DNA of 64,000 nucleotides from Paramesorhizobium deserti (GTDB lineage Bacteria > Pseudomonadota > Alphaproteobacteria > Rhizobiales > Rhizobiaceae): positions 248,001 to 312,000 of the forward strand of contig NZ_LNTU01000037.1 in NCBI RefSeq assembly GCF_001558695.1, read 5' to 3'. The first letter of the stretch is position 1; every line of letters begins with the position of its first letter. This document shows, piece by piece, positions 6,591 to 44,600 of the stretch. The position numbers and the translations under genes are program-made. Under the pieces are notes generated by a model, which was not told the DNA's origin, did no database searches, and saw only the letters and a program-made list of their open reading frames with translations.

Positions 6591-6631
6591 GGCGAATGCT
6601 TCTATCTCCACAATCTCGACCCGCCTGGGCC

Positions 6632-26050: not shown

Positions 26051-26078
26051 CAAAATCACATTTTTTATGATGATTTTG
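26051..26078. promoter_or_regulatory. Inverted repeat between tkt and dhaKL
   Basis: CAAAATCA and TGATTTTG are perfect 8-base arms with a 12-base centre, in an AT-rich stretch 64 bases before tkt and 183 bases before dhaKL. The position suits an operator shared by both transcripts. A DeoR-type regulator from this window could be the binder; this is inference. Confidence 0.45.
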
Positions 26079-26260
26079 TGGAATCAGCATTCCCAAAGTG
26101 GATGTTGGATTGTGATATTCGGTCGTGTGAATGCCGTCCTTTCGCACAACCAACGGCCTTTGCAACGAAACGCCTTTTGCGCAAACTTGCTTGCACAGTG
26201 GAGATGATGCACGGAGTGCTCGAGCGGAAGGGGCACGCTGGGCGAAGGGAGAAAACCGGA

Positions 26261-28739: not shown

Positions 28740-28863
28740 TCCAAGCCTTTCAAGGGTTAGCCGGTGGCCGGCATCTTCGTGCTCGTGACCGAGCGCCAAA
28801 TATCCCTTGGGCGAACAAGCATCGATCCGCCGACATACGGACGGCGTTCGCTACATTGTTCTC

Positions 28864-28999
28864 TTCCATCCGGACTATACCGTCGGCTCCGGCATCGCAC
28901 CGGATCTGCTGACCTTTCGGGGTTGCCGAAAGCGCTCGCGGGCTCCGGGATCTCTCCCGATACCGCCGGTGGGGAATTTCACCCCGCCCTGAGAACATT
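28864..28999 (-). promoter_or_regulatory. FMN riboswitch (RFN element) controlling ribB
   Basis: Read on the minus strand, the region contains the conserved blocks of the RFN element in order: GGGCGGGGTGAAATTCCCC, then ACCGGCGGTA, then AGCCCGCGAGC, GGTCAGCAGATCCGGT, GAGCCGACGGTATAGTCCGG and ATGGAAGA. The terminal pairing TTCTC...GAAGAG-like and the multibranch layout are as expected. FMN binding to this leader represses the gene downstream, here ribB. Between the element and the ribB start there is a short GCCGG-CCA-CCGGC hairpin near the ribosome-binding region, which may be part of the expression platform. Confidence 0.95.
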
Positions 29000-29182
29000 G
29001 CGTAGATAGGCCAGGGGAACAGCGGAAAGCAAGACAAGAACGCGTGATTTTCGATCGATGGCTCGAATTCCGGCGAGAAGTACCCAGACCGGACACGCTC
29101 GGCGCACGGAACGCGAATCCGAGATACCGAACCCGCGGTTACGGCAGACGGTACCTGGGAGAAACATTCTCTTGAACGAGAG

Positions 29183-29212
29183 TTGACAAATGTCGATGCA
29201 TTTCCGAATAAT
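29183..29212 (+). promoter_or_regulatory. Sigma70-like promoter with internal palindrome
   Basis: TTGACA and AATAAT are separated by 18 bases and point at the CUT2 importer operon starting at 29290. Within the spacer lies AAATG-TCGATG-CATTT (29188-29203), a 5-6-5 inverted repeat suited to a repressor site. The other bases between the riboswitch and this promoter (29000-29182) show nothing I can name. Confidence 0.6.
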
Positions 29213-29289
29213 GTAAAAATCAACTCAGGCAGCGCCTAGCCTGAGGCTATGAACCGGCGCAGATCGGGACGAAATCGGGAGGCCATGCC

Positions 29290-30768
29290 TTGGAATATCT
29301 GCTTGAGGTGGAGGGGCTGCGGAAGTCCTTCGGCGGTGTTGCGGCCCTATCTGACGGGCGTTTGCAACTGCGTGCCGGCTCTGTCCATGCCTTGTGCGGG
29401 GGCAATGGCGCGGGAAAATCCACGTTTCTCAAAATCCTCATGGGAATTCACATGCGCGACGGAGGATCGATCCGCCGCCGCGGCATGGAAGTAGCCTATT
29501 CGACCCCCGCCGAAGCACTCGCTGCCGGCATCGCTATCATTGAGCAGGAACTGAGCCCGGTGCCGCATATGACGGTTGCCGAGAACATCTATCTCGGCCG
29601 TGAACCGTCTGGCCGTTTCAGTGGCATCGATTTCAAGACGATGAACCGCAATGCCCAGGCCTTGCTGGATCGGCTCGGCTTCAATGTCCGCCCATCACAG
29701 CTGATGATGAACCTGTCGGTTGCCCAGGTTCAATTGGTCGAGATCGCCAAGGCATTGAGCCACAATGCCGAAGTCATCTTCATGGACGAGCCGACCTCCG
29801 CTATCGGCGAGAAGGAGGCCCAGCATCTGTTCGAGGCCGTCAAGCGCCTCAAAACCGAGGGCAAAGGCATCGTCTATGTGTCCCATCGCCTCTCGGAGAT
29901 CTTCCAGATCGCCAACTCCTACACCGTCTTCCGGGACGGCAGCTATGTCGGCAGCGGCAATCTCGCGGATATCGACAGGCCCGGGCTCATCCGCATGATC
30001 GTCGGCCGGGAATTGGGAGACGAGTACATCAAGACCAACGCCCCAAGCGTTGTCCCCGGTATCGAAGTATCCGGTCTCACCGCGCCGGGCAAAATCGATG
30101 ACGTGTCCTTTACGGCCTGCAAGGGGGAGATCCTCGGCATATATGGGCTGATGGGTTCCGGTCGAAGCGAAATCTTCAACTGCCTGTTCGGCCTTGATCC
30201 TACCTCCAGGGGACGCATCAGCGTCGACGGCCGGAATATCACGATCGCGAAACCGTCCGATGCGATGGCCCATGGCATCGCGTTCGTCACCGAGGACCGC
30301 AAGCTGACGGGTCTCAACCTGACGGGCAGCGTGCGCAGCAACATCTGCATGGCCAGTCTTCCGGAGCTCAGCCCTCGCCTCAACATGAACCGCCGAATGG
30401 AAGCCGATGCCAGCCGGCAAATGGTGGAACGCTTCGACATCAAGGCCGCGCGGGACACGATGCCTGTTTCCGGTCTTTCCGGCGGCAATCAGCAAAAGGT
30501 CGTTCTCGGCAAATGGTTTCATCGCAAGCCAAAAATCCTGCTGCTTGACGAACCAACCCGCGGCGTCGACGTCGGCGCCAAGCGCGAGATCTACCGCATC
30601 ATCTGCGAGTTCGCCGAAGAGGGCGGCACGGTCGTCATGATCTCCTCGGAGATTGATGAAGTTCTAGGCATGTCCGACCGGATCATGGTCATGCGCCGTG
30701 GGCGATCCGCCGGGATCTACAACAGGGAGCAATCGAACGCGCAATCGCTCGTTCACCTGTCCACCTGA
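29290..30768 (+). CDS. CUT2 sugar or polyol ABC importer ATPase (second importer)
   Basis: This 492-residue RbsA-type ATPase has two nucleotide-binding domains. The first shows Walker A GGNGAGKST and Walker B VIFMDEPTSAI, with a degenerate signature (LSVAQVQLVEIAKAL). The second shows the family's atypical Walker A GLMGSGRSE, an intact [14 protein letters not shown] and [16 protein letters not shown]. The start is a TTG with GGGAGG seven bases before; a nearby ATG is out of frame. It is the first gene of a long plus-strand run that continues with a permease, a binding protein, an SDR and DAK kinases, which points to a polyol or ketose as substrate. Confidence 0.87.
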   Translation: MEYLLEVEGLRKSFGGVAALSDGRLQLRAGSVHALCGGNGAGKSTFLKILMGIHMRDGGSIRRRGMEVAYSTPAEALAAGIAIIEQELSPVPHMTVAENIYLGREPSGRFSGIDFKTMNRNAQALLDRLGFNVRPSQLMMNLSVAQVQLVEIAKALSHNAEVIFMDEPTSAIGEKEAQHLFEAVKRLKTEGKGIVYVSHRLSEIFQIANSYTVFRDGSYVGSGNLADIDRPGLIRMIVGRELGDEYIKTNAPSVVPGIEVSGLTAPGKIDDVSFTACKGEILGIYGLMGSGRSEIFNCLFGLDPTSRGRISVDGRNITIAKPSDAMAHGIAFVTEDRKLTGLNLTGSVRSNICMASLPELSPRLNMNRRMEADASRQMVERFDIKAARDTMPVSGLSGGNQQKVVLGKWFHRKPKILLLDEPTRGVDVGAKREIYRIICEFAEEGGTVVMISSEIDEVLGMSDRIMVMRRGRSAGIYNREQSNAQSLVHLST

Positions 30769-30816: not shown

Positions 30817-31818
30817 GTGTCCACCGAGAATAGTTCGCTCAGCACCTGGTTCGGCTCCGAACAGCGCAAACTTATCATCCAGGAATATGGGATCTTCGTC
30901 GCATTTCTTCTTTTGGCTTTGGTTCTTTCGATATCGAACGAATATTTCCTGACGGCGGGCAACATCTCCAACGTGCTGCTACAGACGTCCATCAACGGCA
31001 TTCTGGCGATCGGGATGACCTTCGTCATTCTCACCCGGGGCATCGATCTTTCGGTCGGTTCGGTTGTCGCCCTGGCGGGTATCGTCAGTGCAAGTTTCGC
31101 CACCACCTCCTCGACGGCCGGCGTTCCAGGCGCCCCCTACCCGGCTCTCCTCGCCCTTCCTGTGGGTCTTCTGGTCGGCATCGCCTGCGGCGCCATCGTG
31201 GGCATTATCGTCTCGCGGTTCGCGGTGCCGGCCTTCGTTGCCACGCTTGGCATGCTGTCGGCGGCGCGTGGCATGACGCTCCTTTATGGCGGCGGCCGCC
31301 CGGTTCCCGCCCTGACGCCTGAGTTCCGCTGGATCGGTACCGGCAACATCCTGGGCATACCGATGCCGGTCGTGCTGCTCGCGATCGTTTTTCTGGTCTC
31401 GTGGTGGGTTTTGAACCGCACGCGTTTCGGCCGTTACATCTACGCGGTCGGCGGCAACCCGCATGCGGCCGTTACGTCGGGCATCAATGTCTCGCGACTG
31501 CGCCTATCGGTTTACGTCATATCGGGCGGCCTTGCCGGGCTCGCAGGCATGCTGCTTTCGGCCCGAACCGGATCCGCGTTGCCGCAGGCCGGTATCTCGT
31601 ACGAGCTTGATGCCATTGCCGCCGTCGTTATCGGAGGCACGAGCCTCTCGGGCGGGGTGGGCCGCATCACCGGCACACTTGTCGGCGCTCTGATCATCGG
31701 CGTCATGAACAACGGTTTAGATCTGATGGGCGTCCAATCCTATTACCAACAGGTCCTGAAGGGCGCCCTGATCGTCGGCGCCGTCATGCTGGACCAGAAA
31801 CGGAATCAGGGGGTTTGA
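30817..31818 (+). CDS. CUT2 importer permease (second importer)
   Basis: This 333-residue RbsC-like inner-membrane permease shows INGILAIGMTFVILTRGIDL early, VPAFVATLGMLSAARGMTL in the middle and GGTSLSGGVGRITGTLVGA near the end, with eight to ten hydrophobic stretches. The start is GTG after GAGGTAATATCC. It lies 48 bases after the ATPase gene. It pairs with the binding protein encoded next. Confidence 0.87.
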   Translation: MSTENSSLSTWFGSEQRKLIIQEYGIFVAFLLLALVLSISNEYFLTAGNISNVLLQTSINGILAIGMTFVILTRGIDLSVGSVVALAGIVSASFATTSSTAGVPGAPYPALLALPVGLLVGIACGAIVGIIVSRFAVPAFVATLGMLSAARGMTLLYGGGRPVPALTPEFRWIGTGNILGIPMPVVLLAIVFLVSWWVLNRTRFGRYIYAVGGNPHAAVTSGINVSRLRLSVYVISGGLAGLAGMLLSARTGSALPQAGISYELDAIAAVVIGGTSLSGGVGRITGTLVGALIIGVMNNGLDLMGVQSYYQQVLKGALIVGAVMLDQKRNQGV

Positions 31819-31907: not shown

Positions 31908-32897
31908 ATGAAAAAGCTTTTGATTGCGCTTGCGGCAGCGACCGCATTGATGGCCTCACCAACACTGGCGCAGGATAAGAAGATTAAAGTCGGCGCCGCT
32001 GTCTATGGCCTGAACGCGGAATTCATGCAGATATGGTCGGCCGCCCTGGAAGAGCATCCCGCCATCAAGAACGGTGAAGTCGATCTGACCGTATTCGACG
32101 GCCGCTATGACGCCCTCGTCCAGCAGGAGCAGTTCAACACGATGATCACGCAGAAATACGACGCGATCATCTTCGTGCCGATCGACATCGAAGCAGGCGC
32201 AACCGCCGTCCAGGCGGCACATGATGCCGGCATCCCGGTTATCGGATCCAACACGCGTGTGAACTCCGAGCTTCTCGCATCCTATGTCGGTTCGGACGAC
32301 ACCGTCTCCGGCTATATGGAGGCCAAGAACGTCCTCGACAAAATCGGCTGCAAGGGCAACGTCGTGATCCTCGAAGGACCGATCGGCCAATCGGCCCAGA
32401 TCTCCCGTCTGGAAGGCAACAAGAAGGCACTCGCCGAATGCCCGGAAGTAAAGGTTCTGGAAGACCAGACCGCCAACTGGTCGCGTGCCGAAGCCCAAAC
32501 GCTGATGGAAAACTGGCTGACGGCACATCCGGGCCAGATCAACGGCGTCATCGGCCAGAACGATGAAATGGCGCTCGGTGCGATCGAGGCCATCAAGGCA
32601 GCCAATTTGAAGACCGAGGACTTCGCCATTGCCGGCATCGACGGCATCACCGACGCCCTGCATGCCGTCAAGGCCGGCACGATGACATCCATCCTTCAGG
32701 ATGCCCGTGCACAGGCGCAAGGGGCACTTGATCTGGCGATCTTCCACGCAAGGAAGGGTGACTACAAACCGGAATCCGACATCTGGGCCCAATACCCAGA
32801 CATGCCTTTCAATGATGGCAAGGAAGCCGTCTACAACGTTCCGTGGACCCCGGTAACGGTGGAAAACGTCGACAAGCTCCTGGAAGCCCGCAAGTAA
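31908..32897 (+). CDS. CUT2 periplasmic sugar- or polyol-binding protein (second importer)
   Basis: This 329-residue RbsB-like protein has a signal peptide (MKKLLIALAAATALMASPTLA, cleavage before QD). The mature protein shows VGAAVYGLNAEFMQIW, the hinge region IIFVPIDIEAGATAVQAAHD, and GQNDEMALGAIEAIKAANL. The start follows GGAGGAGAAAGAG, a very strong site that suits high expression of a binding protein. A stable hairpin follows the stop. The ligand is unknown; the genes downstream suggest threitol, erythrulose or a related compound. Confidence 0.87.
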   Translation: MKKLLIALAAATALMASPTLAQDKKIKVGAAVYGLNAEFMQIWSAALEEHPAIKNGEVDLTVFDGRYDALVQQEQFNTMITQKYDAIIFVPIDIEAGATAVQAAHDAGIPVIGSNTRVNSELLASYVGSDDTVSGYMEAKNVLDKIGCKGNVVILEGPIGQSAQISRLEGNKKALAECPEVKVLEDQTANWSRAEAQTLMENWLTAHPGQINGVIGQNDEMALGAIEAIKAANLKTEDFAIAGIDGITDALHAVKAGTMTSILQDARAQAQGALDLAIFHARKGDYKPESDIWAQYPDMPFNDGKEAVYNVPWTPVTVENVDKLLEARK

Positions 32898-32953: not shown

Positions 32954-33727
32954 ATGACCGATACAGCTCCCCACATCGATCTAAATTTCCCGCTCTCCAG
33001 CAAGGTTGCCCTCGTAACCGGAGGAGGGTCCGGCATCGGTGCGGCCATCGCTTCCGCCTTCGCCGCGAAGGGGGCGAAGGTCGCTATTCTGGATATCGAC
33101 ATATCCATCGCCACCGCCAAAGCCGATGCGATCGGCGGTAGCGCAAAACCGTTCGCCTGCGACGTTTCCAATATGGACTCGGTCAATAAGGCGATTGCCG
33201 ATGTTCTTGCTGCCTTTGGCCAGATCGATATCGCGGTCAACAGCGCCGGTGTCGTATTCCTCGCGCCGGCGGAGGAACTCTCGCTGGACCACTGGGACAA
33301 GACAATCGATATAAACCTGAAGGGGACCTTCCTGGTCACCCAAGCCGTCGGCAAGGCGATGATTGCAGCCGGTCAGGGCGGCAAGATCATCAACATTGCC
33401 TCACAAGCCGGCACGGTCGCCATCGAAGAGCACGTCGCCTATTGCGCCTCGAAATTCGGGGTCATCGGCATGTCGAAAACCTTTGCCGCCGAATGGGGAC
33501 GCCACGGCATCAATGTCAACACCATCTCACCCACCATCGTCCTGACCGAGCTGGGCAAGAAGGCATGGGCCGGCGAAAAGGGCGAAGCCGCCAAAAAGCG
33601 CATTCCGGCGGGCCGTTTCGCCTATCCGGAAGAGATTGCCGCCGCGGCTGTTTTCCTGGCATCCGCGGGCGCGGAGATGATCACCGGCGCCGATCTCCTG
33701 ATCGACGGCGGATACACGATACTGTGA
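32954..33727 (+). CDS. Short-chain dehydrogenase, probable polyol dehydrogenase
   Basis: This 257-residue NAD(P)-dependent enzyme is a classical SDR. It has the nucleotide motif TGGGSGIG (residues 22-29), NSAGVV, the catalytic serine in INIASQAG and YCASKFG with the Y-x-x-x-K pair, and ends with TGADLLIDGGY. The ATG at MTDTAPH gives the normal SDR length; the frame itself is open for 37 more codons that overlap the binding-protein gene. An SDR followed directly by DAK kinase genes matches the layout described for D-threitol catabolism (dehydrogenase to erythrulose, then erythrulose kinase). That assignment is inference. Confidence 0.83.
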   Translation: MTDTAPHIDLNFPLSSKVALVTGGGSGIGAAIASAFAAKGAKVAILDIDISIATAKADAIGGSAKPFACDVSNMDSVNKAIADVLAAFGQIDIAVNSAGVVFLAPAEELSLDHWDKTIDINLKGTFLVTQAVGKAMIAAGQGGKIINIASQAGTVAIEEHVAYCASKFGVIGMSKTFAAEWGRHGINVNTISPTIVLTELGKKAWAGEKGEAAKKRIPAGRFAYPEEIAAAAVFLASAGAEMITGADLLIDGGYTIL

Positions 33728-33757: not shown

Positions 33758-34750
33758 ATGCAGCGATTCATCAACAATCCCGATGAAGTCGTCGAAGATA
33801 CCGTCAAAGGCTTCGTAAAAGCCCATTCCGATATTGTTCGCCTTGCGGAAAACCCGCGCGTGATCGCTGCCAGGAATGCACCTTACCAAGGCAAGGTCGG
33901 CGTCATAACCGGCGGTGGTTCAGGTCATGAGCCGGCCTTCATCGGCTATACCGGCAAGAACATGCTGGACGCAGTCGCCGTCGGCGAACTTTTCTCGTCT
34001 CCAACGGCCAAGAGCTTCTACGACGCCGTTCGCGAAGCCAATGGCGGAAAGGGTGTCGTCTGCCTCTACGGCAACTATGCCGGCGACAACATGAATGTGA
34101 AGATGGCGGTAAAAATGGCCGCTAAAGAGGGCATCGAGGTCGCGACCGTCGTGGCCAATGATGACGTATGTTCAGCCCCGCCGGAAGAACGGAAAAAGCG
34201 CCGCGGCGTGGCGGGCGAGATCTTCATGTGGAAGATCGGCGGCGCCAGGGCGGCAAGCGGTGCTTCGCTTGAGGAAGTCCGCGCAACCGCCCAGAAAGCC
34301 ATCGACAATTGCCGCTCGATCGGCGTCGGCCTTGGTCCCTGTACCCTTCCGGCGGTCGGCCATCCGAACTTCCAGATCGAACCCGGCACGATGGAAGTCG
34401 GCATCGGGCATCACGGCGAGCCCGGCGTGCGTGTGGAGCCCTTGAAGACCGCGGATGCGATCGCCAGGGATATGTGCAGGATCGTTCTCGACGATCATGC
34501 CCTGCCTGAAGGCACCGAGGTCGCGGTGCTTGTTTCGGGCCTCGGCGCGACGCCGCTCAATGAGCTTTATATCCTAAACGACACAATCGAAGCGGAAATC
34601 ACCGGCCGCGGCCTGAAGATATACCGCACCTATGTCGGCAACTATTTTACATCCCTCGAAATGGTCGGTGCCACATTGACCGTCATGGCGCTCGATGCGG
34701 AATTAAAGGAACTCCTCGACGTCGAAGTTCATTGCACAGCGCTTTTGTAA
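33758..34750 (+). CDS. dhaK: DhaK subunit of a DAK-family ketose kinase (copy 1)
   Basis: This 330-residue protein is a stand-alone DhaK. It has VGVITGGGSGHEPAFIGYTG at residues about 47-66, YGNYAGDNMN, RGVAGEIFMWK and the covalent-substrate histidine in EVGIGHHGEPG. The residue before that histidine is also histidine, where isoleucine is usual (GIHGE). DhaK binds the ketose, here perhaps dihydroxyacetone or erythrulose, and needs a DhaL partner, which is encoded next. The start follows AGGAGACACT. No DhaM phosphotransferase gene is seen, so ATP is the likely donor. Confidence 0.88.
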   Translation: MQRFINNPDEVVEDTVKGFVKAHSDIVRLAENPRVIAARNAPYQGKVGVITGGGSGHEPAFIGYTGKNMLDAVAVGELFSSPTAKSFYDAVREANGGKGVVCLYGNYAGDNMNVKMAVKMAAKEGIEVATVVANDDVCSAPPEERKKRRGVAGEIFMWKIGGARAASGASLEEVRATAQKAIDNCRSIGVGLGPCTLPAVGHPNFQIEPGTMEVGIGHHGEPGVRVEPLKTADAIARDMCRIVLDDHALPEGTEVAVLVSGLGATPLNELYILNDTIEAEITGRGLKIYRTYVGNYFTSLEMVGATLTVMALDAELKELLDVEVHCTALL

Positions 34751-34762
34751 GAAAGTTTAGAA

Positions 34763-35404
34763 ATGCAGACATTCAGCAATACCTCGTCCGGCGACATCGT
34801 TCTTGCCATGGCCGACCGTATTATCGAGAACCGCGCCTATCTCAGCGAGATAGACGGCAAGATCGGTGACGGCGATCATGGAGTCAACATGGCCAAGGGC
34901 TTCAGCATGGCTGCCGAACGGCTCAAAGGCAGGAAGGTTTCGCTCGGCGAATCCTTTGACACGCTTGGCACGGTGCTTATGACCGAAATTGGCGGGTCAA
35001 TGGGACCGCTCTATGGTGTTATGTTCACTGAGTTTGCCGAGAAGCTTGAGGGCGCCGAGGCCATTGACGCCAAGGCTTTCAGCGACATGCTTCATGCAGG
35101 TCTTGCCGGCATCCAGTCCATCGGATCCGCCAAGGTCGGCGACAAGACCCTGCTCGACACATTCGTGCCCGCCGTGGAAGCTTTTGACATGGCAACCGCT
35201 TCCGGAAAGTCATTTTCGGATGCTCTTCAAGCCCTTGTCATCGCAGCGGAGCAGGGCCGCGACTCCACGATCGATCTTGTCGCGAAGATCGGTCGCGCCA
35301 GCCGGCTCGGTGATCGTTCGCTTGGCGTGCTGGATGCCGGTGCCACTTCCTGCGCCATCATCTTGAAGGAGCTGTCGCTCGGCGCATCGGACAAGCTACA
35401 CTGA
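34763..35404 (+). CDS. dhaL: DhaL subunit of a DAK-family ketose kinase (copy 1)
   Basis: This 213-residue nucleotide-binding subunit shows the magnesium-binding aspartates in EIDGKIGDGDHGVNMAKGF, the GGSMGPLYGVMF helix turn and the final LGDRSLGVLDAGATSC motif. It lies 12 bases after dhaK and completes a two-chain kinase. The ribosome-binding site is weak, which suggests coupling to dhaK. It is similar in layout to the second DhaL at 37692 but the two clearly differ. Confidence 0.87.
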   Translation: MQTFSNTSSGDIVLAMADRIIENRAYLSEIDGKIGDGDHGVNMAKGFSMAAERLKGRKVSLGESFDTLGTVLMTEIGGSMGPLYGVMFTEFAEKLEGAEAIDAKAFSDMLHAGLAGIQSIGSAKVGDKTLLDTFVPAVEAFDMATASGKSFSDALQALVIAAEQGRDSTIDLVAKIGRASRLGDRSLGVLDAGATSCAIILKELSLGASDKLH

Positions 35405-35561
35405 CCGCAGGCCCCTGGGCATGCTACGAGCGTTGAAATCCGAGAGCTGCATGGCCAGGCCGCACTTGGCCGTGCACTGTTGCAAAAACGCTTGAACCGG
35501 CCGCGCATCACCGTCATCTTCGACACCGTTATCAGGATGTGAGCGCAGAGTTACGAAACGA

Positions 35562-37646
35562 ATGCCATCAACGAAGAAAGCAGCAGCAAAAAAGGCGGAA
35601 CCGTCCGAAGGAATGGAGGTCATGCCACTTCGTTATGGTGATGATCCCTATGTCTGGGCCTGTTGGCTCTATTACCAGGAAGGGCGCACCCAAGGCGAGA
35701 TCGCCGGGATCATGGGAATATCGCGAGCAACGGTGAACAGCTACCTCGCGGACGCCCGTCACCGTGGCATCGTCAACATCTCGCTTGAACCCGAACGGCT
35801 CAGTTCGCTTTCGATCGCACAGGAACTAAAGCGTCATTTCGGCCTGACGGATTGCCTTGTCGTGCCGAGCGACGATGGTTCCCGGACCATTATAGACCGC
35901 CTGGGTTCAGCCGGCGCGCAGGCGCTGACGAAGCTCCTGAAGTCCGGCGATACGCTTGCCGTTGCCTGGGGGCGCACAACGCTGTCGATTGCGGAAAATC
36001 TGTCGGTCTCCAATCTGCAGGATGTGACGGTGGTGCAGGCAACCGGCGGCACCCGTGCGACTTTCACCTATACGCCCGAGCTTTGCGCCTCGGCAGCCGC
36101 CACCGCCATCGGCGCCAGGCTGGTTAACATCACCGCGCCGGCGATCGTCTCCAGCGTAGAAGTCCGCTCGGCACTCATGCAGGAGCCTCTGCTGGAAGAA
36201 CAGTTCGCGGTCCTTGCCCGGGCCAACAAAGCGCTGTTCGGGGTTTCGTCGCTCCGCCCGAATTCCACCATTCATACCAGTGGCTTCTTTGAATCGGTTT
36301 CCATCCAGGATTATCTGGCGAAAAACGCCGTTGGTGTCGTTGCCGGCCGGTTCGTGGACTCCCATGGGCATCCCGTCGCCGGCCCCCTGGACGAGCGGAC
36401 GGTTGGCATTTCGCTGGATATGCTGAAGAACATCGGAACGCGCATTGCTGTCGCCGGAGGGTTCGACAAGGTGCCGGCAATCCTGGCCGCTCTCAGAGGG
36501 GGGTATGTGAATGTCCTCATCACCGACGCAGCAACAGGGCGAGGCATATTGAACGCCGACGGCGTAACGGAATTCGACCAGAAGGCATCGCAGCGCTCGC
36601 GCGTCAGAGAAACGGTTCAGCTTACGAGTAACGTCCGTACACATATCAAGAAATTCCTCAACAATCCCAATGACGTTGTGGAAGAGATGCTGGACGGTGT
36701 GACGAAGGCGCATGCTGCCTACATCCAGCCGATCAAGGGATCGAACCGAAGCCTGGTGGCGAAAAATGGTCCCCGCAAGGGCAAAGTCGGCCTCGTCATC
36801 GGCGGTGGCACCGGACATGAACCCTGCTTTCTCGGCTATGTCGGCAAGGGGCTTGCCGATGCTGTCGCCGTCGGCAACATTTTTTCTTCGCCTCCTCCGA
36901 CGCCCATCCTGGAATGTACGAAAGCTGCGTCCGGCGGTGAAGGCGTTTTGTTTGTCTACGGCAATTACGCCGGCGACGTCATGAACTTCGAAATGGCGGC
37001 GGAAATGGCGCAGGACGAGAATATCGAGGTTCGCACCGTTTTGACCACTGACGACATAGCCTCCTCTCCCATTGAGGACCGCGAGGGACGGCGCGGCGTC
37101 GCGGGCAACATCTTCGTCTTCAAGATCGCCGGTGCGGCCTGTGACCGGGGACTTTCCCTCGCCGAATGTGAGGCCGTCACCCGCAAGGCGAACAACCGGA
37201 CATTCACCATGGGCGTGGCGCTCGAGCCCTGCTCGCTGCCGCAGACCCGGCGGCATAATTTCGAGATCGGGCAGGACGATATCGAGATTGGCATGGGCAT
37301 CCACGGCGAGCGCGGCGTCGTGCGCGACCGGATGATGCCTGCCGACGAGATCACCGACCGGATCATGGACCGGATATTTTCGGAGATGAACGCGGTACCG
37401 GGGGACCGGGTTGCCGTGCTTGTCAATTCCTTCGGAGCAACACCGCTTATGGAGCTCTACATTCTGTTCCGACGTGTTGCGCAGCGTCTGAGCGCCAAGG
37501 ACATCAGCATCGAGGCGAACTGGATCGGCCACTACTGCACGTCGCTGGATATGGTGGGGGCATCGATCTCGATCCTGCATCTGGACAATGAATTGTCGGA
37601 ATTGCTCCACCATCCTTGTGATACCGCATTTCTGAGAGTGAACTGA
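35562..37646 (+). CDS. SorC-family regulator fused to a complete DhaK domain
   Basis: This 694-residue protein joins two whole proteins. Residues about 22-335 are a SorC regulator: helix-turn-helix YYQEGRTQGEIAGIMGISRA (residues 37-56), the sugar-binding domain with VAWGRTTLSIAENL, QATGGTRATFTY and the late LITDAATGRGIL, also seen in EryD. Residues about 357-694 are a full DhaK: KVGLVIGGGTGHEPCFLGYVG, YGNYAGDVMNFEMA, RGVAGNIFVFK and the covalent-substrate histidine (H581) in GMGIHGERG. The frame is continuous, with a short linker, and both halves keep their key residues. The protein could bind DNA and ketose at once. A dhaL gene follows 45 bases downstream. A lysine-rich 20-residue tail precedes the regulator; the exact start is not certain. 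Confidence 0.9.
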   Translation: MPSTKKAAAKKAEPSEGMEVMPLRYGDDPYVWACWLYYQEGRTQGEIAGIMGISRATVNSYLADARHRGIVNISLEPERLSSLSIAQELKRHFGLTDCLVVPSDDGSRTIIDRLGSAGAQALTKLLKSGDTLAVAWGRTTLSIAENLSVSNLQDVTVVQATGGTRATFTYTPELCASAAATAIGARLVNITAPAIVSSVEVRSALMQEPLLEEQFAVLARANKALFGVSSLRPNSTIHTSGFFESVSIQDYLAKNAVGVVAGRFVDSHGHPVAGPLDERTVGISLDMLKNIGTRIAVAGGFDKVPAILAALRGGYVNVLITDAATGRGILNADGVTEFDQKASQRSRVRETVQLTSNVRTHIKKFLNNPNDVVEEMLDGVTKAHAAYIQPIKGSNRSLVAKNGPRKGKVGLVIGGGTGHEPCFLGYVGKGLADAVAVGNIFSSPPPTPILECTKAASGGEGVLFVYGNYAGDVMNFEMAAEMAQDENIEVRTVLTTDDIASSPIEDREGRRGVAGNIFVFKIAGAACDRGLSLAECEAVTRKANNRTFTMGVALEPCSLPQTRRHNFEIGQDDIEIGMGIHGERGVVRDRMMPADEITDRIMDRIFSEMNAVPGDRVAVLVNSFGATPLMELYILFRRVAQRLSAKDISIEANWIGHYCTSLDMVGASISILHLDNELSELLHHPCDTAFLRVN

Positions 37647-37691: not shown

Positions 37692-38345
37692 ATGTCTGAA
37701 AGTGCAGCGCGCCGCCTGAGCCGGATGTTCCAGCTGATATCCCTCGCCATCGACGCGAAACAGGATCATCTGTCCGATCTGGACGGAGCGATCGGCGATG
37801 CCGATCACGGGATCACGATGTCGCTCGGCTTTGCCGCGGTCAACAGTGAACTCGCCAAGCTCGACCTCGACCGAATGCTGCCTTCCGAAGTCTTTTCCGC
37901 AGCCGCGACGGCCTTCCTCAATGCGGTCGGCGCGTCGACCGGGCCACTCTATGCGACAGCTTTCCGCAAGGCAGCGCAGGCCCTGAAGCCATTGGAAAGC
38001 CTTTCACCGGCCGATCAGGCAATCATCATCGAAGCCATGGCCACCGGCATCAAGGATCGAGGCAAGGGACAGCGCGGCGATAAAACAATGCTCGACGCCT
38101 GGATTCCTGCCGCAGAAGCTGCCGCGAAAGCCGCTTCCCGAGAGGCCACGGCCGCCGAGATGTGGAGCAGCATCCTTGCCGCCGCTCAGGATGGCGCCAA
38201 TGCCACGAGGTCGATGGTCGCAGCGCGCGGCCGCGCGGCGCGGCTCGGCGAACGGTCATTGGGGCATATGGATCCAGGATCTGCTTCCGCCGTTATCATC
38301 CTCAATGCCATGCGGGATGCCTTCACCGAGGGCAGCGATTCGTGA
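37692..38345 (+). CDS. dhaL: DhaL subunit (copy 2), partner of the SorC-DhaK fusion
   Basis: This 217-residue subunit shows the aspartates in DLDGAIGDADHGITMSLGF, where the usual GDGDHG is GDADHG, the segment NAVGASTGPLYATAF, and LGERSLGHMDPGSAS near the end. It lies right after the fusion gene and probably supplies the nucleotide-binding half for its DhaK domain. If it also controls the SorC domain, as DhaL does with DhaR in E. coli, it would be a regulatory link; that is speculation. Confidence 0.86.
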   Translation: MSESAARRLSRMFQLISLAIDAKQDHLSDLDGAIGDADHGITMSLGFAAVNSELAKLDLDRMLPSEVFSAAATAFLNAVGASTGPLYATAFRKAAQALKPLESLSPADQAIIIEAMATGIKDRGKGQRGDKTMLDAWIPAAEAAAKAASREATAAEMWSSILAAAQDGANATRSMVAARGRAARLGERSLGHMDPGSASAVIILNAMRDAFTEGSDS

Positions 38346-38462: not shown

Positions 38463-39368
38463 ATGGCAAACGAGATTGGACGCAGCTTAGGCAGATTCGT
38501 CGGACTTGAGCAGCCTCGGACTCTCAGCACCCGCTTTTTGCAACTGGCGGAAATCACTGGCACCCGTCTTAGATGGAACGAACCTGAAAACGAAGCTCCG
38601 GTCCGGATGGAACGAAGCAACGGCTATCTTCTGTGCCTGCAGCGGCGCTATCTGGCCGAGTACCCATATTGGGTCAACGACAAACCGGTGTCGGCAATGC
38701 CGCTCGATGCCGGGCAGTTTCTTTTTCTCGATATGAACGAGGAGCATGCCTCCCTGACGCGGGGCGCCGTGGATTGCGTTTCCATGTATCTTCCGCATGA
38801 GGCGCTGCGGCGCTTTCATGAAGAACACGATCTGCCATCGGTGGGAGCGCTTCGGACCGCCAGCGGCGTGGCCTTTAACGATGACATCATCAGGAATCTG
38901 GGTGAGTGCCTCGTTCCGGCCTTCGAGCGGCCGGATAGGGTGAGCCAGTTGTTTGCCGACCACGTCGCGCTGGCGCTCACGACCCATTTGAGCGCCTCCT
39001 ATGCCGAAGGGCCCGTCGTCCTGCGGCCGGTCCGTGGAGGATTGGCCCAATGGCAGGAACGTCGGGCGAAGGAAATGCTGCTGGCCAATCTGGATGGCAA
39101 TATTGGTCTCGGGGAACTGGCTCGTGCATGCGGCCTGTCGCGCAGCCATTTCGCGCGGGAATTCAAGACCACCGTGGGCATGCCTCCCCTGCGATGGTTG
39201 CTGGTCCAGCGAATAGAGCGAGCGAAAGACCTGCTTATGAACCCTTCTTTGCCGATCGATCAGATCGCGCTTCATTTCGGGTTCACTGACCAAAGCCACT
39301 TCACCCGCGCCTTTCACAAGGTTGAAGGTGTCACGCCTGGCACGTGGCGACGTATCCGCCGTTTTTAG
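38463..39368 (+). CDS. AraC-family regulator A of the aldehyde oxidoreductase genes
   Basis: This 301-residue regulator has an N-terminal AraC-binding-like domain (YLLCLQRRYLAEYPYWVNDKP) and a C-terminal double helix-turn-helix (LGELARACGLSRSHFAREFKTTVG and IDQIALHFGFTDQSHFTRAFHKVEGVTPGTWRR). It lies about 240 bases before the paoABC-like genes on the same strand. It is closely similar in length and sequence to the regulator at 43695 behind those genes, so the pair probably arose by duplication. The signal it senses is unknown. Confidence 0.85.
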   Translation: MANEIGRSLGRFVGLEQPRTLSTRFLQLAEITGTRLRWNEPENEAPVRMERSNGYLLCLQRRYLAEYPYWVNDKPVSAMPLDAGQFLFLDMNEEHASLTRGAVDCVSMYLPHEALRRFHEEHDLPSVGALRTASGVAFNDDIIRNLGECLVPAFERPDRVSQLFADHVALALTTHLSASYAEGPVVLRPVRGGLAQWQERRAKEMLLANLDGNIGLGELARACGLSRSHFAREFKTTVGMPPLRWLLVQRIERAKDLLMNPSLPIDQIALHFGFTDQSHFTRAFHKVEGVTPGTWRRIRRF

Positions 39369-39607
39369 ACGTACTTTGATCGGACGACATCTTCTAATTG
39401 AAATTCCTCCCGCAACTGCTCGGCGGCTTTGGATCACGCTTGCGTGAGCCGAAGGCTCAGTTTCCGCAAGACAGCACTTGCGTACAAAAAACAGCACTCC
39501 ATGCACTGGCCCGTGAACGAGCGATAAGTAGCGTTTGAAGTCGAAGCTGCGGAGGGCTGGCCTTGTTTGGCCGAATGCCACCACGCGGCATTCGCCAGGA
39601 GGCCAGG

Positions 39608-40255
39608 ATGACCAACCAACACCAAAGATCCCCAGGTGAGGCAGGAACGAACGGGCACTCGGGCCCCGCTTCCACATTATCACGTCGCACCGTCCTTCAG
39701 ATGGCCGGTAGCGCCGCATCGCTCGCGGCGATGTCTCATGCGGAGGCACAGTCAATTTCAGAGACGCAGTCCACCGTTGCGGATGCCGGAGCGGCCAGGC
39801 CGCTCCAGCTCACTGTCAACGGCGTATCGAGAGAGCTGGAGGTCGATCCACGGCAATCATTGCTCGATGTCCTGCGTGAAACGCTCGATCTCACCGGCAC
39901 GAAGAAAGGCTGCAACCAGGGCGCATGCGGTGCGTGCACCATTCTCGTCAACGGCAGGCGTATCGTCTCCTGCCTGACCCTGGCGTCCATGCATGACGGC
40001 GCCGAGATCGAAACGATCGAGGGGCTGGAAAAGAATGGGGAGCTTCACCCACTCCAACAGGCGTTCGTGGAGCATGAGGGCCTGCAGTGCGGCTTTTGCA
40101 CCCCCGGTCAGATCATGTCCGGACTGGGCTGCATCGCCGAGGGACATGCGGGATCGCCGGAGGAGATCCGGTTCTGGATGAGCGGCAATATCTGCCGCTG
40201 CGGCGCCTATCCGGGCATTGTCGCAGCCGTTGCCGACGCGGCCGGGAGGAGCTGA
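39608..40255 (+). CDS. PaoA-like iron-sulfur subunit of a periplasmic aldehyde oxidoreductase
   Basis: This 215-residue subunit carries two 2Fe-2S clusters. It has a twin-arginine signal (LSRRTVLQMAG, then ASLAAMSHAEA), so it is exported folded. The plant-type cluster motif is GCNQGACGACTILVNG with a later C in IVSCL; the second cluster motif is QCGFCTPGQIM with CRCGAYPG. Cluster spacing and the Tat signal match E. coli PaoA (YagT). The start follows AGGAGGCCAGG; the frame opens 15 codons earlier. It is the first of three subunits, with 3 bases to the next gene. Confidence 0.87.
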   Translation: MTNQHQRSPGEAGTNGHSGPASTLSRRTVLQMAGSAASLAAMSHAEAQSISETQSTVADAGAARPLQLTVNGVSRELEVDPRQSLLDVLRETLDLTGTKKGCNQGACGACTILVNGRRIVSCLTLASMHDGAEIETIEGLEKNGELHPLQQAFVEHEGLQCGFCTPGQIMSGLGCIAEGHAGSPEEIRFWMSGNICRCGAYPGIVAAVADAAGRS

Positions 40256-40258
40256 CCC

Positions 40259-41236
40259 ATGTTTCCGTTTGTGCTGGAAAAAGCCGGTAGCGCGGAAGCC
40301 GCGATAGCAGCCGCGGCCGCCGGAGCGCGTTACATCGCCGGTGGCACGACGCTTGTCGATCTCATGCGCGACGAGGTCGAGCGTCCAGAGCGGCTCGTGG
40401 ACATCAACGCCCTTCCCCTGAGCGACATCCGGGCGGATGGCGAAGACCTGGTCATCGGCGCGCTAGCCCGGATGTCCGATGTCGCCACCCATCCAGAAGT
40501 AGGGCGCCTGCAGCCGATAATCGCGGAAAGCCTGATCGAAGGCGCGTCGCCGCAGTTGCGCAACATGGCCTCCATGGGTGGCAACCTGCTGCAGCGTTGC
40601 CGTTGCCCCTATTTCAGGATGCTCGACGCAGCCTGCAACAAGCGCGATCCGGGCTCCGGCTGCGCGGCGATCGACGGCCTCAATGCCGGCAACGCGATCC
40701 TCGGTACGAGCGATCATTGCGTGGCCACACATCCTTCCGATGTCGCCGTCGCCCTCGTGGCCTTGGGAGCGACGATGCGCGTCCGCGGCTCGGATGGCGA
40801 ACGCAGCTTCGCCGTGGAGGATCTTTTTCGCCTGCCCGGCGATACGCCGCATCTCGAACATACGCTGACCCCGGGCGAGCTCATCCTGGATATCCGTGTA
40901 CCTGGCGGGCCCTACGGTCGCCGCGCGCGCTATCTCAAGGTGCGCGACCGTGCGTCATACGAGTTCGCCCTCGTCTCGGCAGCGGTGGCGCTCGATGTCG
41001 AGGAGGGTCTTATCCGTTCCTCGCGCATCGCGGTGGGCGGGGTCGGCACCAAGCCCTGGCGCCTGCGGGCCTGCGAGACGGCTCTCGCCGGCAAACCCGC
41101 GGACCGCTCGAGCTTCGAGGCCGCCGCGCGTCTGGCGACGGAGGGTGTCCGCCCGCTGAGCCATAACCATTACAAGGCCGAGCTATTGCCTCGGACCATC
41201 GTCCGTGCCCTCGAAATGGCGGGAGACGTCGCATGA
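40259..41236 (+). CDS. PaoB-like FAD and 4Fe-4S subunit
   Basis: This 325-residue subunit binds FAD (AGGTTLVDLMRDE near residue 28 and NMASMGGNLLQR near 102-113). Unlike ordinary xanthine dehydrogenase FAD subunits it has four clustered cysteines: RCRCPYFR (C114, C116), AACNKR (C126) and GSGCAA (C135). This is the extra 4Fe-4S motif of E. coli PaoB (YagS). It therefore places the enzyme in the PaoABC group rather than with cytosolic xanthine dehydrogenase. It overlaps the large subunit gene by four bases (ATGA). Confidence 0.87.
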   Translation: MFPFVLEKAGSAEAAIAAAAAGARYIAGGTTLVDLMRDEVERPERLVDINALPLSDIRADGEDLVIGALARMSDVATHPEVGRLQPIIAESLIEGASPQLRNMASMGGNLLQRCRCPYFRMLDAACNKRDPGSGCAAIDGLNAGNAILGTSDHCVATHPSDVAVALVALGATMRVRGSDGERSFAVEDLFRLPGDTPHLEHTLTPGELILDIRVPGGPYGRRARYLKVRDRASYEFALVSAAVALDVEEGLIRSSRIAVGGVGTKPWRLRACETALAGKPADRSSFEAAARLATEGVRPLSHNHYKAELLPRTIVRALEMAGDVA

Positions 41237-43467
41237 CAGTCCGGTTTATCGGTAGCCCCCACACCCGTGTCGACGGTCCCCGCAAGGTGACCGGGAATGC
41301 CCGCTACGCGGCCGACTTCAATCAGGCAGGCCAGGCCTACGCCGTCATCGTGAGCGCCACGGTCGGGCTCGGCCGGATAACGGAGATGGACGGCGCCTCG
41401 ATCGAGCGGATGCCGGGCGTCGTCGCGGTCATTACCCACCACAATGCCGAGAAGCTGCCCTATCTCCCCCACAAGGCGGTCATCGATCCGGCGGAGGGCG
41501 AGCGGCTGCACGTGCTGCAGGACGATCAGGTGCGGTTTTACGGACAACCCGTCGCGGTCGTCGTGGCCGACACGCTCGATGATGCCGAACGTGCGGCCGC
41601 GGCGCTGCGGATCAGCTATGATGCCCGGCGACCAATCGTCGATCATGCCGGCGACGAAGTGAAGGCGATCGTGCCCGATGCGGCCACACGGCCCGGCGCC
41701 AGAACGCTGGCGGACCGGTCGCGCGGCGAGGCGGATGCCGCCGTGGCGAACGCGGCGGTAAAGGTCGACGAGAATTATGACATCGCCCGCGAGAACCACA
41801 ATCCAATGGAGCCGCATGCGACGATCGCCTCCTGGAATGGTGAACGGCTCACCTTGTGGAGCAAGAGCCAGTATCTGGTCAACGAGCAGGCGGAGATCGC
41901 CGCCATATTCGGACTGCCCCTCGAGAATGTCGAGGTCGTTTGCCCCTTCATCGGCGGCGCCTTCGGGACAAGCCTCAGAACCTGGCCGCATGTCACGCTG
42001 GCCGCACTTGCGGCGCGTCATATCAGGCGCCCCGTCAAGCTCGTGCTCACCCGCAAGCAGATGTTCTTCACGACCGGGCATCGGCCACGCACGCTTCAGA
42101 GGATCGCGCTTGGAGCGACACCGGAAGGTGCGCTTGCGGGGATGGTGCACGAAGGCACCGGCGAAACGAGCCGCTACGAGCAGTTCATGGAGGCGCTGAC
42201 GAACGTCACCGATTATCTCTATTCCTGTCCCAATGTGCGCACGCAATATCGGCTGGCGCCTCTCGACACGAGCACCCCCAATCACATGCGAGGCCCTGGT
42301 GAAGCCAGCGGCATCTTTGCAATCGAGAGCGCCATGGACGAATTGTCCTATAAGCTCGGGATCGATCCGATCGAGCTGAGACGGCGCAACGAACCGCAGC
42401 TCGATGAAGCTGAGAACAAGCCGTTCTCCAGCCGCTCGCTCATGCAATGCTACGAACTCGGCGCCGAACGTTTCGGCTGGACTCAAAGAACACCCGAGCC
42501 GCGTTCCATGCGCGACGGGCGTCTTCTCATCGGCATGGGAACGGCAACGGCCACTTACCCGGCCTTCCATGCGCCGGCGAGCGCCAGGGTCCGGTTGCTC
42601 GCCGACGGAACGGCAGAAGTCGAGGCGGCCGCAAGCGACATGGGACCAGGGACCTATACCTCCATGAGCCAGGTGGCGGCGGAATTCCTTGGGCTGCCGC
42701 TGGAACGGGTTCGTTTCAGGCTCGGCAGGTCGGATTATCCGCAGACCCCTTCTCACGGCGGCTCGTGGACGATGGCATCGGTGGGATCGGCAATCCGGGC
42801 GGCCTGTCTGGAAGTGCAGGCGCAAGCAGCGCGCCGCGCGGCGGCGGACGCCGGCTCACCGCTATCCGGAGCGTCGGTGGACGATCTCGAATGGAGCGAA
42901 GGGCTTCTTCGACGCCGGGGCGATACGTCACCGGGCATATCCTATCACGACATCGTCGTCAGAGCCGGCGTGCCGATCGAGGCCGGCGGGTCCGCGCAAC
43001 GCGATCCGAAAGTGGCGGAACAATATTCGATGCACGCCTTCGGTGCGGTCTTCGCCGAGGTCGCCGTCGATCCCGATGTCGGCACGATCGCGGTTCGCCG
43101 GATTGTCGGCGCATACGGGATCGGCCGCGTGGTCAATCCTCTTCTTGCCCGCAGCCAATGCACCGGCGGCATGATCGGCGGCATGGGTATGGCGCTCATG
43201 GAGCGCACCGCGCTTGATCCCCGCGACGGCCGTCCGGTGAACGCCCATATGGCCGACTATCTCATGCCTGTGAACCTCGATATTCCGGAACTGGAGGCGC
43301 ATTTCGTCGATGAGGTCGACCCGCACGTCAACCCCTTGGGCGTAAAGGGCCTGGGCGAGATCGCGCTTGTGGGAACCGCTCCGGCGATCGGAAATGCGGT
43401 GTTCCACGCAACGGGCAAGCGCGTGCGGACCCTGCCGATCCGGATCGAGGACATGCTGACCGCGTAG
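41233..43467 (+). CDS. PaoC-like molybdenum cofactor-binding large subunit
   Basis: This 744-residue catalytic subunit of the xanthine oxidase family would oxidise aldehydes to acids in the periplasm. It shows the entry motif RVDGPRKVTGNARYAADF, FIGGAFGTS in the cofactor region, MRGPGEASGIFAIESAMDEL and the active-site glutamate in GLGEIALVG near the end. E. coli PaoABC has broad aromatic aldehyde specificity; the substrate here is unknown. No PaoD/XdhC-type maturation gene is visible in the window, so the cofactor chaperone must be elsewhere. The gene is coupled to the FAD subunit gene. Confidence 0.88.
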   Translation: MTVRFIGSPHTRVDGPRKVTGNARYAADFNQAGQAYAVIVSATVGLGRITEMDGASIERMPGVVAVITHHNAEKLPYLPHKAVIDPAEGERLHVLQDDQVRFYGQPVAVVVADTLDDAERAAAALRISYDARRPIVDHAGDEVKAIVPDAATRPGARTLADRSRGEADAAVANAAVKVDENYDIARENHNPMEPHATIASWNGERLTLWSKSQYLVNEQAEIAAIFGLPLENVEVVCPFIGGAFGTSLRTWPHVTLAALAARHIRRPVKLVLTRKQMFFTTGHRPRTLQRIALGATPEGALAGMVHEGTGETSRYEQFMEALTNVTDYLYSCPNVRTQYRLAPLDTSTPNHMRGPGEASGIFAIESAMDELSYKLGIDPIELRRRNEPQLDEAENKPFSSRSLMQCYELGAERFGWTQRTPEPRSMRDGRLLIGMGTATATYPAFHAPASARVRLLADGTAEVEAAASDMGPGTYTSMSQVAAEFLGLPLERVRFRLGRSDYPQTPSHGGSWTMASVGSAIRAACLEVQAQAARRAAADAGSPLSGASVDDLEWSEGLLRRRGDTSPGISYHDIVVRAGVPIEAGGSAQRDPKVAEQYSMHAFGAVFAEVAVDPDVGTIAVRRIVGAYGIGRVVNPLLARSQCTGGMIGGMGMALMERTALDPRDGRPVNAHMADYLMPVNLDIPELEAHFVDEVDPHVNPLGVKGLGEIALVGTAPAIGNAVFHATGKRVRTLPIRIEDMLTA

Positions 43468-43694
43468 AACAACTTTAGGATCGGACACCGGAAGGGCAAT
43501 TTTGACCCGTCGTACCTGAAAGCCACAGGCACGCAGGGATAGGCTCGGCTGTTCCTTATGCACGGCTGCACGGACTACAGGCCTTTCGCCAATAGGCGTG
43601 TCCATATGCACCAAGGAATCGGGGAACAAACCCGAACGGGTTCGGATATGATGGCTCGGGTACCACAACGCTCCGTAAACCGATGGAGAAGGGG

Positions 43695-44600
43695 ATGACG
43701 GAGAGGATCGACGGTCATGCAGGCACATTCGATAAAGTACATGATCAGCCTCATTTCAGGATCAGTGCAATACCGTCGGCGGAAATCTCGTTGAGCTGGA
43801 TGGCCTGGAAGGAACCCGGATCTGGGAGCCCGACGCGGTTCGAGCGCAAGGATGGCTATCTCATGTGTCTGCAGCGGATCGACGTTCCTGCAAATCCACA
43901 TTGGGTCGATGGCCGGAGCGTTGTGATGCCGCACGTCATCCGCGGACAGTCGCTGCTCGCCGATCTCAACCGGGAACATACCGCAATCGTCCATACGGCG
44001 GTCGACTGCATCTCATTTTATGTTTCACGCAGGGCAATCGAGCGCTTCCTCGATGAGCACGGCCTGCCGAGGGTTGCCTCGCTTCGCGCAATTCAGGGTG
44101 AGGCGCTGAACGACACCGTCGTTGAAAATCTCGGCAATTGCCTGTTGCCCGCTTTCCAGCATCCGGAAACCGCCAGTCAGCTTTTCGTGGACCATGTCGC
44201 GCTTGCACTCCTCTCGCATCTGGTCGCCAGTTACGGGGAGCGTGAAGTCACGATAAGGCCGGCAAGCGGCGGGCTCGCGCCCTGGCAGGAGCGGCGCACC
44301 AAGGAGATGCTGCTCGCCAGCATCGACGGAAAAATCGGGCTCGACGAACTTGCACGGGGATGCGGCCTGTCGCGCAGCCATTTCGCGCGGGCCTTCAAGA
44401 CCACGACGGGAATGTCTCCCATGCGGTGGCTGCTCGTTCAGCGTATCGAACGCGCGAAGGATCTGCTGACGAATTCCCCGCTACCCGTCGATCAGATAGC
44501 GCATCAGTGCGGTTTCGCCGATCAAAGTCACTTCACCCGCGCTTTTTTCAGGATAGTGGGCGTCACACCCGGTGCGTGGCGCCGGGTGCGCCAATTCTAG
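43695..44600 (+). CDS. AraC-family regulator B, paralog flanking the aldehyde oxidoreductase genes
   Basis: This 301-residue AraC protein has the same domains as the regulator at 38463: sensor segment YLMCLQRIDVPANPHWVDGRS and helix-turn-helix pair LDELARGCGLSRSHFARAFKTTTG and VDQIAHQCGFADQSHFTRAFFRIVGVTPGAWRR. The ATG chosen follows GGAG and gives exactly the length of the paralog; one four codons earlier is also in frame. It stands alone after paoC with a 227-base gap that holds nothing else I can name. It converges on the surface-protein operon. Confidence 0.85.
   Translation: MTERIDGHAGTFDKVHDQPHFRISAIPSAEISLSWMAWKEPGSGSPTRFERKDGYLMCLQRIDVPANPHWVDGRSVVMPHVIRGQSLLADLNREHTAIVHTAVDCISFYVSRRAIERFLDEHGLPRVASLRAIQGEALNDTVVENLGNCLLPAFQHPETASQLFVDHVALALLSHLVASYGEREVTIRPASGGLAPWQERRTKEMLLASIDGKIGLDELARGCGLSRSHFARAFKTTTGMSPMRWLLVQRIERAKDLLTNSPLPVDQIAHQCGFADQSHFTRAFFRIVGVTPGAWRRVRQF

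Follow-up and report, generated by a model that had tools for sequence, protein, structure and literature searches.

The window analysed here is a stretch of 64,000 nucleotides from the soil-type bacterium Paramesorhizobium deserti (NZ_LNTU01000037.1, positions 248,001-312,000), to which all coordinates below refer. Its central feature is a gene on the + strand (P0001, 35562-37646) in which a transcription regulator of the SorC family and a complete kinase subunit of the DhaK type are encoded as one protein of 694 residues. This SorC-DhaK fusion probably serves both as the local repressor of its operon and as a kinase subunit in a pathway that takes up and phosphorylates a small polyol or ketose. 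The evidence comprises the conservation of both halves and of the catalytic residues, the presence of a DhaL gene beside the fusion, and a predicted SorC-type double operator at the head of the operon that is associated with the fusion across genomes. In what follows, L-numbers denote loci, G-numbers genomes and C-numbers contigs of the window's genome.

The architecture itself is not new. Both halves belong to known families and, as an earlier sequence-only reading of this DNA had stated, the pair is already named in public annotation (WQP11238.1, for example, is entered as 'bifunctional sugar-binding transcriptional regulator/dihydroxyacetone kinase subunit DhaK'). No experimental study of the fusion was recognised in the literature searched, a search outside which most subscription journals lay, and as far as that literature goes the predicted operator and its association with the fusion are new, as are the genomes in which the fusion is the sole kinase of its kind and the separate promoter-like element of the fusion gene. 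Enzymes that inform transcription factors are usually separate proteins, whereas here regulator and enzyme form one chain, a pairing that, judging by tree labels, has been retained in several alphaproteobacterial families and that a compact predicted operator makes testable. Should the protein indeed sense its own product, it would amount to a metabolic switch contained in a single minimal unit and could serve as a component of small-ketose sensors, and Sinorhizobium meliloti and other plant-associated bacteria would gain a testable regulator for a sugar locus.

The SorC-DhaK fusion and its DhaL partner

The translation of 35562-37646 runs without a stop, as the sequence-only reading had claimed, and the frame is also intact in relatives that are 93-94% identical. 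The N-terminal half contains a helix-turn-helix (HTH) at residues 41-72 approximately (35682-35777), with the recognition part SRATVNSYLADAR, which was placed by alignment with DeoR and LsrR, coincides with helices 44-51 and 55-67 of the structural model and is common to stand-alone paralogs. In Pfam this region (about 33-71) is weakly matched, by generic HTH and sigma-region-4 models. It is followed by the sugar-phosphate sensor at residues 82-331 (35805-36554), which the domain search assigns to Sugar-bind (PF04198; E 4e-62, 210 bits, cut-off 27) and which is fitted by the DeoR, LsrR and SorC structures. An HTH followed by PF04198, with DeoR, LsrR and SorC matching both parts in alignments and fold search, places this half in the SorC family. 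A flexible linker (residues 338-361, 36573-36644; predicted local distance difference test (pLDDT) below 50) leads to the DhaK (Dak1) domain at residues 362-694 (36645-37643). The claim that this domain is complete proved correct: PF02733 matches residues 379-689 with an E of 2e-118 and 395 bits, covering profile positions 2-312 of 313. The AlphaFold model of the whole protein, built with 21 sequences in the alignment, has a mean pLDDT of 76.5 and a predicted template modelling score (pTM) of 0.49; its best fold matches are E. coli DhaK structures, which stand at the top for the kinase domain, and, separately, the DeoR, SorC and LsrR structures.

For the conservation analysis, all frames of 104 sequences were searched, and 47 frames contained both halves; once L001, a copy of the window itself, and the duplicate L004 were set aside, 45 fusions remained, the window included. 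H581, named beforehand as the histidine that binds the substrate covalently, is present together with H419 and D472, and all three are kept in 45/45 fusions as well as in 97/97 unfused DhaK frames. In the alignment to 1oi2 they fall at H56, D109 and H218 of E. coli DhaK, the catalytic histidine and aspartate and the covalent histidine. Across the 45 fusions 164 positions are invariant: the HTH contributes 18 of its 54, the sensor 42 of its 260, the linker (336-361) none of its 26 and DhaK 104 of its 333. Relative to the two nearest relatives (L002, L003), the ratio of non-synonymous to synonymous substitutions (dN/dS; own Nei-Gojobori script) comes to 0.05-0.08 in the HTH and 0.06 in the sensor, with 0.03-0.04 in DhaK, values that indicate strong purifying selection on all three. 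It is about 1.5 for the first 21 codons, and because residues 1-21 are thus unconstrained the true start may lie slightly 3' of the annotated one. The frame being intact in relatives and the dN/dS lying at 0.03-0.08, a sequencing join or a decaying half is very unlikely. An assembly or frameshift artefact was accordingly discarded on the intact relatives, and a degenerate DhaK half on the retention of the three catalytic residues.

In a quick tree the fused DhaKs fall into one group of 50 of the 142 rows (Shimodaira-Hasegawa-like approximate likelihood ratio test (SH-aLRT) 99), apart from the group of DhaK1, the separate kinase subunit of the operon; the group of 50 also holds four unfused DhaKs and one DhaK from a cut-off contig (L054). 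No SorC half was found beside the unfused close DhaKs in L107 and L108. Fusions occur in Rhizobiaceae and, by tree labels, also in Brucellaceae, Xanthobacteraceae, Rhodobiaceae and Roseobacteraceae. The fusion is present in 7 of 61 relatives' genomes; in the window's family 23 of 199 genomes have it, G537 as a partial case, and 110 plasmid records carry it at a coverage of at least 80%. Among 398 phylum genomes five give a full-length match (E at most 1e-100), one of them being the window's, and in this set no match lies outside the window's class. By this sequence record the SorC-DhaK pairing is old and conserved, and no accident.

The likely ATP (adenosine triphosphate)-binding kinase partner of the fusion is DhaL2 (37692-38345, +; PF02734, above the TIGR02365 cut-off), whose nucleotide-binding aspartates D31, D36 and D38 are invariant in 11 aligned DhaL. 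Related loci numbered 39, namely 37 from genome contigs (L054 left out) and two from plasmids, and a DhaL adjoins the fusion in every one of them (on its 5' side in L050 and L056), as it does in L005-L007 (3/3). The surroundings differ: 30 of the 39 loci have the window's kind of transporter (type A), four an unrelated four-gene transporter (type B; L034, L047, L050, L101) and five other surroundings (L042, L043, L045, L052, L056). A third kind of transporter, with SBP_bac_1 genes, is found in L042 and L106; in L106 the fusion is divergent from the solute-binding-protein gene of this kind, and in L105 it is divergent from a run with two ABC (ATP-binding cassette) ATPases, the first frame of L105 being left unassigned. 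The transporters thus vary in these sequences, while the fusion and a DhaL persist.

Genome-wide counts bear on whether the fused DhaK works as an enzyme. Two genomes, G025 and G028, have no Dak1 other than the fusion and no Dak2 other than the neighbouring DhaL, so that, if any DhaKL kinase works in these bacteria, the fused DhaK must be part of it; G390 and G398 have two Dak1 and two Dak2 each. DhaM was not found in the window's genome by a search that detects it in E. coli, and for this reason ATP is the likely phosphate donor. Together with DhaL, the fused DhaK is in all likelihood catalytic.

A predicted double operator and two promoter-like elements

The predicted operator, TTGACAAATGTCGA-N7-CCGAATAATGTAAA with N7 = tgcattt and 21 bp from centre to centre, lies at 29183-29217 (+), 5' of the first gene of the operon at 29290, and is supported by motif finding, conservation at operon heads and genome specificity. 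An expectation-maximization (EM) motif search (own script) on 71 dereplicated upstream stretches yields the palindrome TTGACA(TA)TGTCAA. With at most three mismatches and within 400 bases, every type A operon head carries this palindrome (31 of 31, counting the window), as compared with 0.7% of 1580 plain shuffles of upstream stretches. In most type A heads a second half site follows 21 bp on, with flanks that are otherwise divergent in a site-anchored alignment, and the strict double pattern is found in 27 of the 31 (all save L030, L035, L039 and L040). It also occurs in three type B loci, L034, L047 and L101, where the transporter is unrelated, and in L042, with imperfect double forms in L043 and L052. 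Within the window the palindrome is the sole match with three mismatches or fewer in 64 kb, a count for which 0.82 is expected by chance and which is by itself little proof. The second exact palindrome of the window's genome (C39), beside a P-type ATPase-like frame, has no second half by eye and was taken as chance. The sequence-only reading had guessed at binding sites upstream of both 29290 and 33758; the former is where the predicted operator of SorC layout lies, and 5' of the latter there is no site with three mismatches or fewer.

Genome scans with the strict double pattern returned six sites in five of the 61 relatives' genomes (seven of which have the fusion), four of them at fusion-operon heads, and 16 sites in 15 of the 199 family genomes. 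Fourteen of these 16 lie within 11 kb of a fusion, two of the 14 on its 3' side. The exact double operator is present in 14 of 23 fusion genomes and in one of the 176 others (Fisher p 1e-14, kinship uncorrected), and a reversed control pattern is absent from both genome sets. No other regulator lies in the conserved core of the locus, and on these patterns the fusion very probably binds DNA at the predicted operator.

The nearest stand-alone SorC paralogs, examined in four genomes, are 40-42% identical to the fused SorC half. The same double operator is found near the paralog in two of the four, the window's own genome (L125) and a relative (L124), and no good site was found near the paralogs in L127 and L128. 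The paralog in L125 (4239-5285, contig C37, 42%) has a RhaD-like aldolase/dehydrogenase and ABC transporter operon nearby, sugar-type by family scan, and a double operator at 11292 with one mismatch. The recognition stretch SRAT is common to paralogs and most fusions, with SRPT in L050 and SRAS in L056, and two more distant SorC proteins differ from it; the operator thus fits the SorC subfamily formed by the fusion and its nearest paralogs. A further SorC-type frame of the window (5616-6680, -) is 27% identical to the fused half and has a different HTH recognition helix.

By comparison with the promoter consensus, a promoter-like element, TTGACA-18-AATAAT (29183-29212, +; 11/12 positions), lies inside the operator. 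A separate element, TTGAAC-N17-CATCTT (35492-35520, +), precedes the fusion gene and is conserved in relatives, and its presence suggests basal expression of the fusion and DhaL2 while the main promoter is shut. All 31 type A loci have a gap between DhaL1 and the fusion, which ranges from 142 to 401 bases with a median of 161. TTGCAA-N17-CATCTT, the commonest form in relatives, is found with up to two mismatches in 30 of the 33 loci with a gap below 320 bases and in 0.4% of shuffles; L026, L027 and L037 do not have it, and the consensus tool does not call the fusion-gene element sigma-70. In the same gap many relatives (L021, L022, L035, L051 and others) show by eye a GC-rich inverted repeat, approximately GCGCGACC...GGTCGCGC, after DhaL1, perhaps a partial terminator, which is indistinct in the window copy.

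A regulator that may synthesise its own inducer

In the proposed pathway, the SorC half, as a tetramer of two dimers, would bind the double operator at 29183-29217, which covers the operon promoter, and keep the ABC transporter, the dehydrogenase and DhaK1-DhaL1 off; we infer repression rather than activation. The promoter-like element of the fusion gene would provide a little fusion and DhaL2 in the absence of the sugar. Incoming ketose would be captured by the fused DhaK via H581 and phosphorylated with ATP-loaded DhaL2, and the ketose phosphate would then bind the SorC sensor, so that the repressor leaves the DNA and the transporter, dehydrogenase and DhaK1-DhaL1 are expressed. The fusion would thus make its own inducer. 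The chances that a ketose phosphate is the effector are about even. Somewhat less assured is the idea of a repressor synthesising its own inducer, in which the same oligomer captures the ketose covalently, phosphorylates it with DhaL2 and senses the product, the operon opening only when substrate, ATP and partner are all at hand; a direct coupling between the two halves is more tentative still.

SorC regulators occupy their two-part operators as tetramers and leave them on binding a phosphosugar from the pathway concerned (PMC11229326). Since dihydroxyacetone phosphate frees CggR, which belongs to the family, from its DNA (PMC11229326), product sensing fits SorC biology better than the analogy with E. 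coli that had been drawn earlier. Like DeoR and CggR of Bacillus subtilis, LsrR and SorC, the fusion combines an HTH with a PF04198 phosphosugar sensor and has, by prediction, an operator of two halves, which as in DeoR overlaps the promoter (PMC11229326); unlike the solved SorC regulators, stand-alone chains of about 315-350 residues, it continues into a complete kinase subunit. With DhaK of DhaKL(M) systems it shares the full Dak1 fold, the catalytic residues and an adjacent DhaL, from which it differs in its N-terminal regulator, in the lack of DhaM in the genome, in being presumably ATP-driven and in scoring below the TIGR02363 cut-off. In DhaQ-DhaS of Lactococcus and DhaR-DhaK-DhaL of E. 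coli a DhaK-like protein likewise informs a transcription factor, in line with structure titles, but through separate chains and non-SorC regulators, whereas here the link is covalent and the regulator a SorC protein. LsrK is a separate kinase of another family. In the LsrR/LsrK pair the inducer of a SorC-family repressor is a phosphorylated compound made by this kinase (PMC2561040), a likeness to the kinase-made inducer proposed here.

A further comparison is with the S. meliloti protein WQP11238.1, which is 79% identical and lies in the same DhaK-DhaL-fusion-DhaL core, there with a different, divergent transporter where the window has its transporter and dehydrogenase. A link to autoinducer-2 (AI-2), considered on account of that transporter being annotated as autoinducer-2 binding, was rejected: the binding protein scores 110.3 bits against 384 for LsrB and 137.7 against 342.25 for RhaS, and on pSymB of strain 1021 a far higher-scoring LsrB lies elsewhere, at 639 kb (634.9 bits; the one next to the DhaK genes, at 318 kb, reaches 110.2).

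Several observations weigh against the fusion as repressor and kinase subunit. On the enzyme side, the fused DhaK reaches 382.8 bits on the DhaK equivalog model TIGR02363, 23 bits short of the NCBI cut-off of 406.25, although it is far above the Pfam Dak1 cut-off. In G008 (L104, 9878-13821) a free DhaK, one DhaL and the fusion follow one another on the same strand, and a gene for a PfkB-type kinase lies next to them; with two Dak1 and one Dak2 above cut-off in that genome, the DhaL is common to the fusion and the free DhaK, not private. Concerning the coupling of the halves, the disordered linker and the pTM of 0.49 give no indication of a fixed interface. As to the operator, the motif was derived from the same upstream stretches that were later scored, so that the genome scans are its sole test, and the scanned genomes probably include species used in motif finding. 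The exact operator is absent from nine of the 23 fusion genomes, seven with fusions at 55-65% identity and two at 73-74%, and a relaxed double criterion finds none in L039, L045, L050, L104, L105 and L106, a separate inspection of L106 revealing a weak double site in the divergent gap. In G016 the operator occurs although the genome has no fusion, and the second of the sites in G463 lies apart from the fusion. Finally, 42 of 43 loci (the window counted twice) have no + strand palindrome in the 300 bases 5' of the fusion gene, and for this reason autoregulation is unsupported in type A operons; L052 has an imperfect double site directly 5' of the fusion gene, and in G495 an exact palindrome lies 795 bases upstream of it. 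In G016 (L126, 89-133) overlapping operator-like palindromes were seen at a contig end.

The stand-alone paralog with a like operator in the window's own genome could bind 29183-29217 instead of the fusion or in addition to it. If the site belonged to the paralog alone, the fusion would be a kinase with a DNA-binding half that is vestigial or acts elsewhere. The near-identical double operator at the paralog's operon (L125, 11292) and the one in a relative (L124) speak for this explanation; however, the HTH of the fusion has a dN/dS of 0.05-0.08 and keeps the paralog's recognition stretch, 14 of the 15 operator-bearing genomes have the fusion, and G021 has the operator while its next SorC among the matches listed is only 31% identical. 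Such an assignment is very improbable. A doubtful but more credible alternative is that the halves are joined merely for co-production and work apart from each other, with a different phosphosugar as the ligand of the SorC half. The long disordered linker of unconserved sequence, the pTM of 0.49 and the lack of interface evidence from residues would all agree with it; on the other side, and weakly, no split version was recognised in the examined loci despite their varying gene order, and an operon alone would give co-expression.

Two further explanations give the kinase half a different part. The fused DhaK may no longer matter as an enzyme and instead report bound ketose to the SorC half, in the manner of DhaQ, a DhaK paralog that serves as co-activator in Lactococcus. 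The score of the fusion on the DhaQ co-activator model TIGR02362, 212.9 bits against a cut-off of 413.25, argues against such a role, as do the three catalytic residues in 45/45 fusions, the DhaL adjoining every fusion checked and the two genomes in which the fusion and its neighbour are the sole Dak1 and Dak2. In its favour are the presence of DhaQ (2iu4) among the fold matches, the retention of H581, DhaK1-DhaL1 as a second pair in most loci that could do the bulk of the work, and the single DhaL of G008. This explanation is quite unlikely. The other, put forward in the sequence-only reading, is that the docking of DhaL2 on the fused DhaK, or its nucleotide state, changes how the SorC half binds DNA, the traffic of the kinase being the signal. 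The contact between DhaR and DhaK in E. coli, to which the structure title of 4lrx refers, is a precedent, and a DhaL adjoins every fusion checked. The E. coli Dha system is driven by the phosphotransferase system (PTS) protein DhaM, and since the window's genome has none the analogy holds in part only; moreover, the SorC sensor is under purifying selection, which suggests a small-molecule effector of its own. We regard a contact mechanism of this kind as unlikely. The broader proposal of the same reading, a regulator that carries its own ketose kinase, is supported by the predicted operator 5' of 29290, the kept catalytic residues and the adjacent DhaL.

Genes of the operon and other features of the window

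The operon of the window reads, all on the + strand, ABC ATPase, permease, binding protein, GolD/DthD dehydrogenase, DhaK1, DhaL1, fusion and DhaL2. At its head lies the sugar ABC transporter ATPase gene (29290-30768), assigned from its translation and with homologs above 70% in 30 of the 39 loci, followed by the permease (30817-31818), assigned from its translation and conserved order; the families of both were judged by resemblance. The periplasmic sugar-binding protein (31908-32897; PF13407) is RbsB-like, RbsB being its best NCBIfam model, below cut-off. The short-chain dehydrogenase (32954-33727) belongs to the GolD/DthD family (NF005309, 403 bits, cut-off 286), the match starting at residue 38 of a frame that begins at 32843; because of this family the substrate of the window's operon type is perhaps D-threitol, converted to D-erythrulose, and a Sinorhizobium homolog is annotated as D-threitol dehydrogenase. 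DhaK1 (33758-34750; PF02733) forms a distinct clade in the tree, and DhaL1 (34763-35404; PF02734) is above the TIGR02365 cut-off. In the type A locus L026 of Labrys, part of a type B transporter (2-2000) lies beside the operon, as if both uptake routes fed one kinase set.

Elsewhere in the window, a third kinase of the family (26078-27991, +) has DhaK and DhaL fused in one frame of 637 residues (PRK14479 family, above cut-off) and lies upstream of a ribB-like gene. This ribB-like gene (28089-28799, -) is preceded by a flavin mononucleotide (FMN) riboswitch (28854-29000, -; RF00050, 121.5 bits) and is divergent from the fusion operon. Beyond DhaL2 there are two similar AraC-type regulators (38463-39368 and 43683-44600, +), the first recognised as AraC by Pfam and the second by eye, and the three frames between them (39563-43467) look molybdenum hydroxylase-like by eye.

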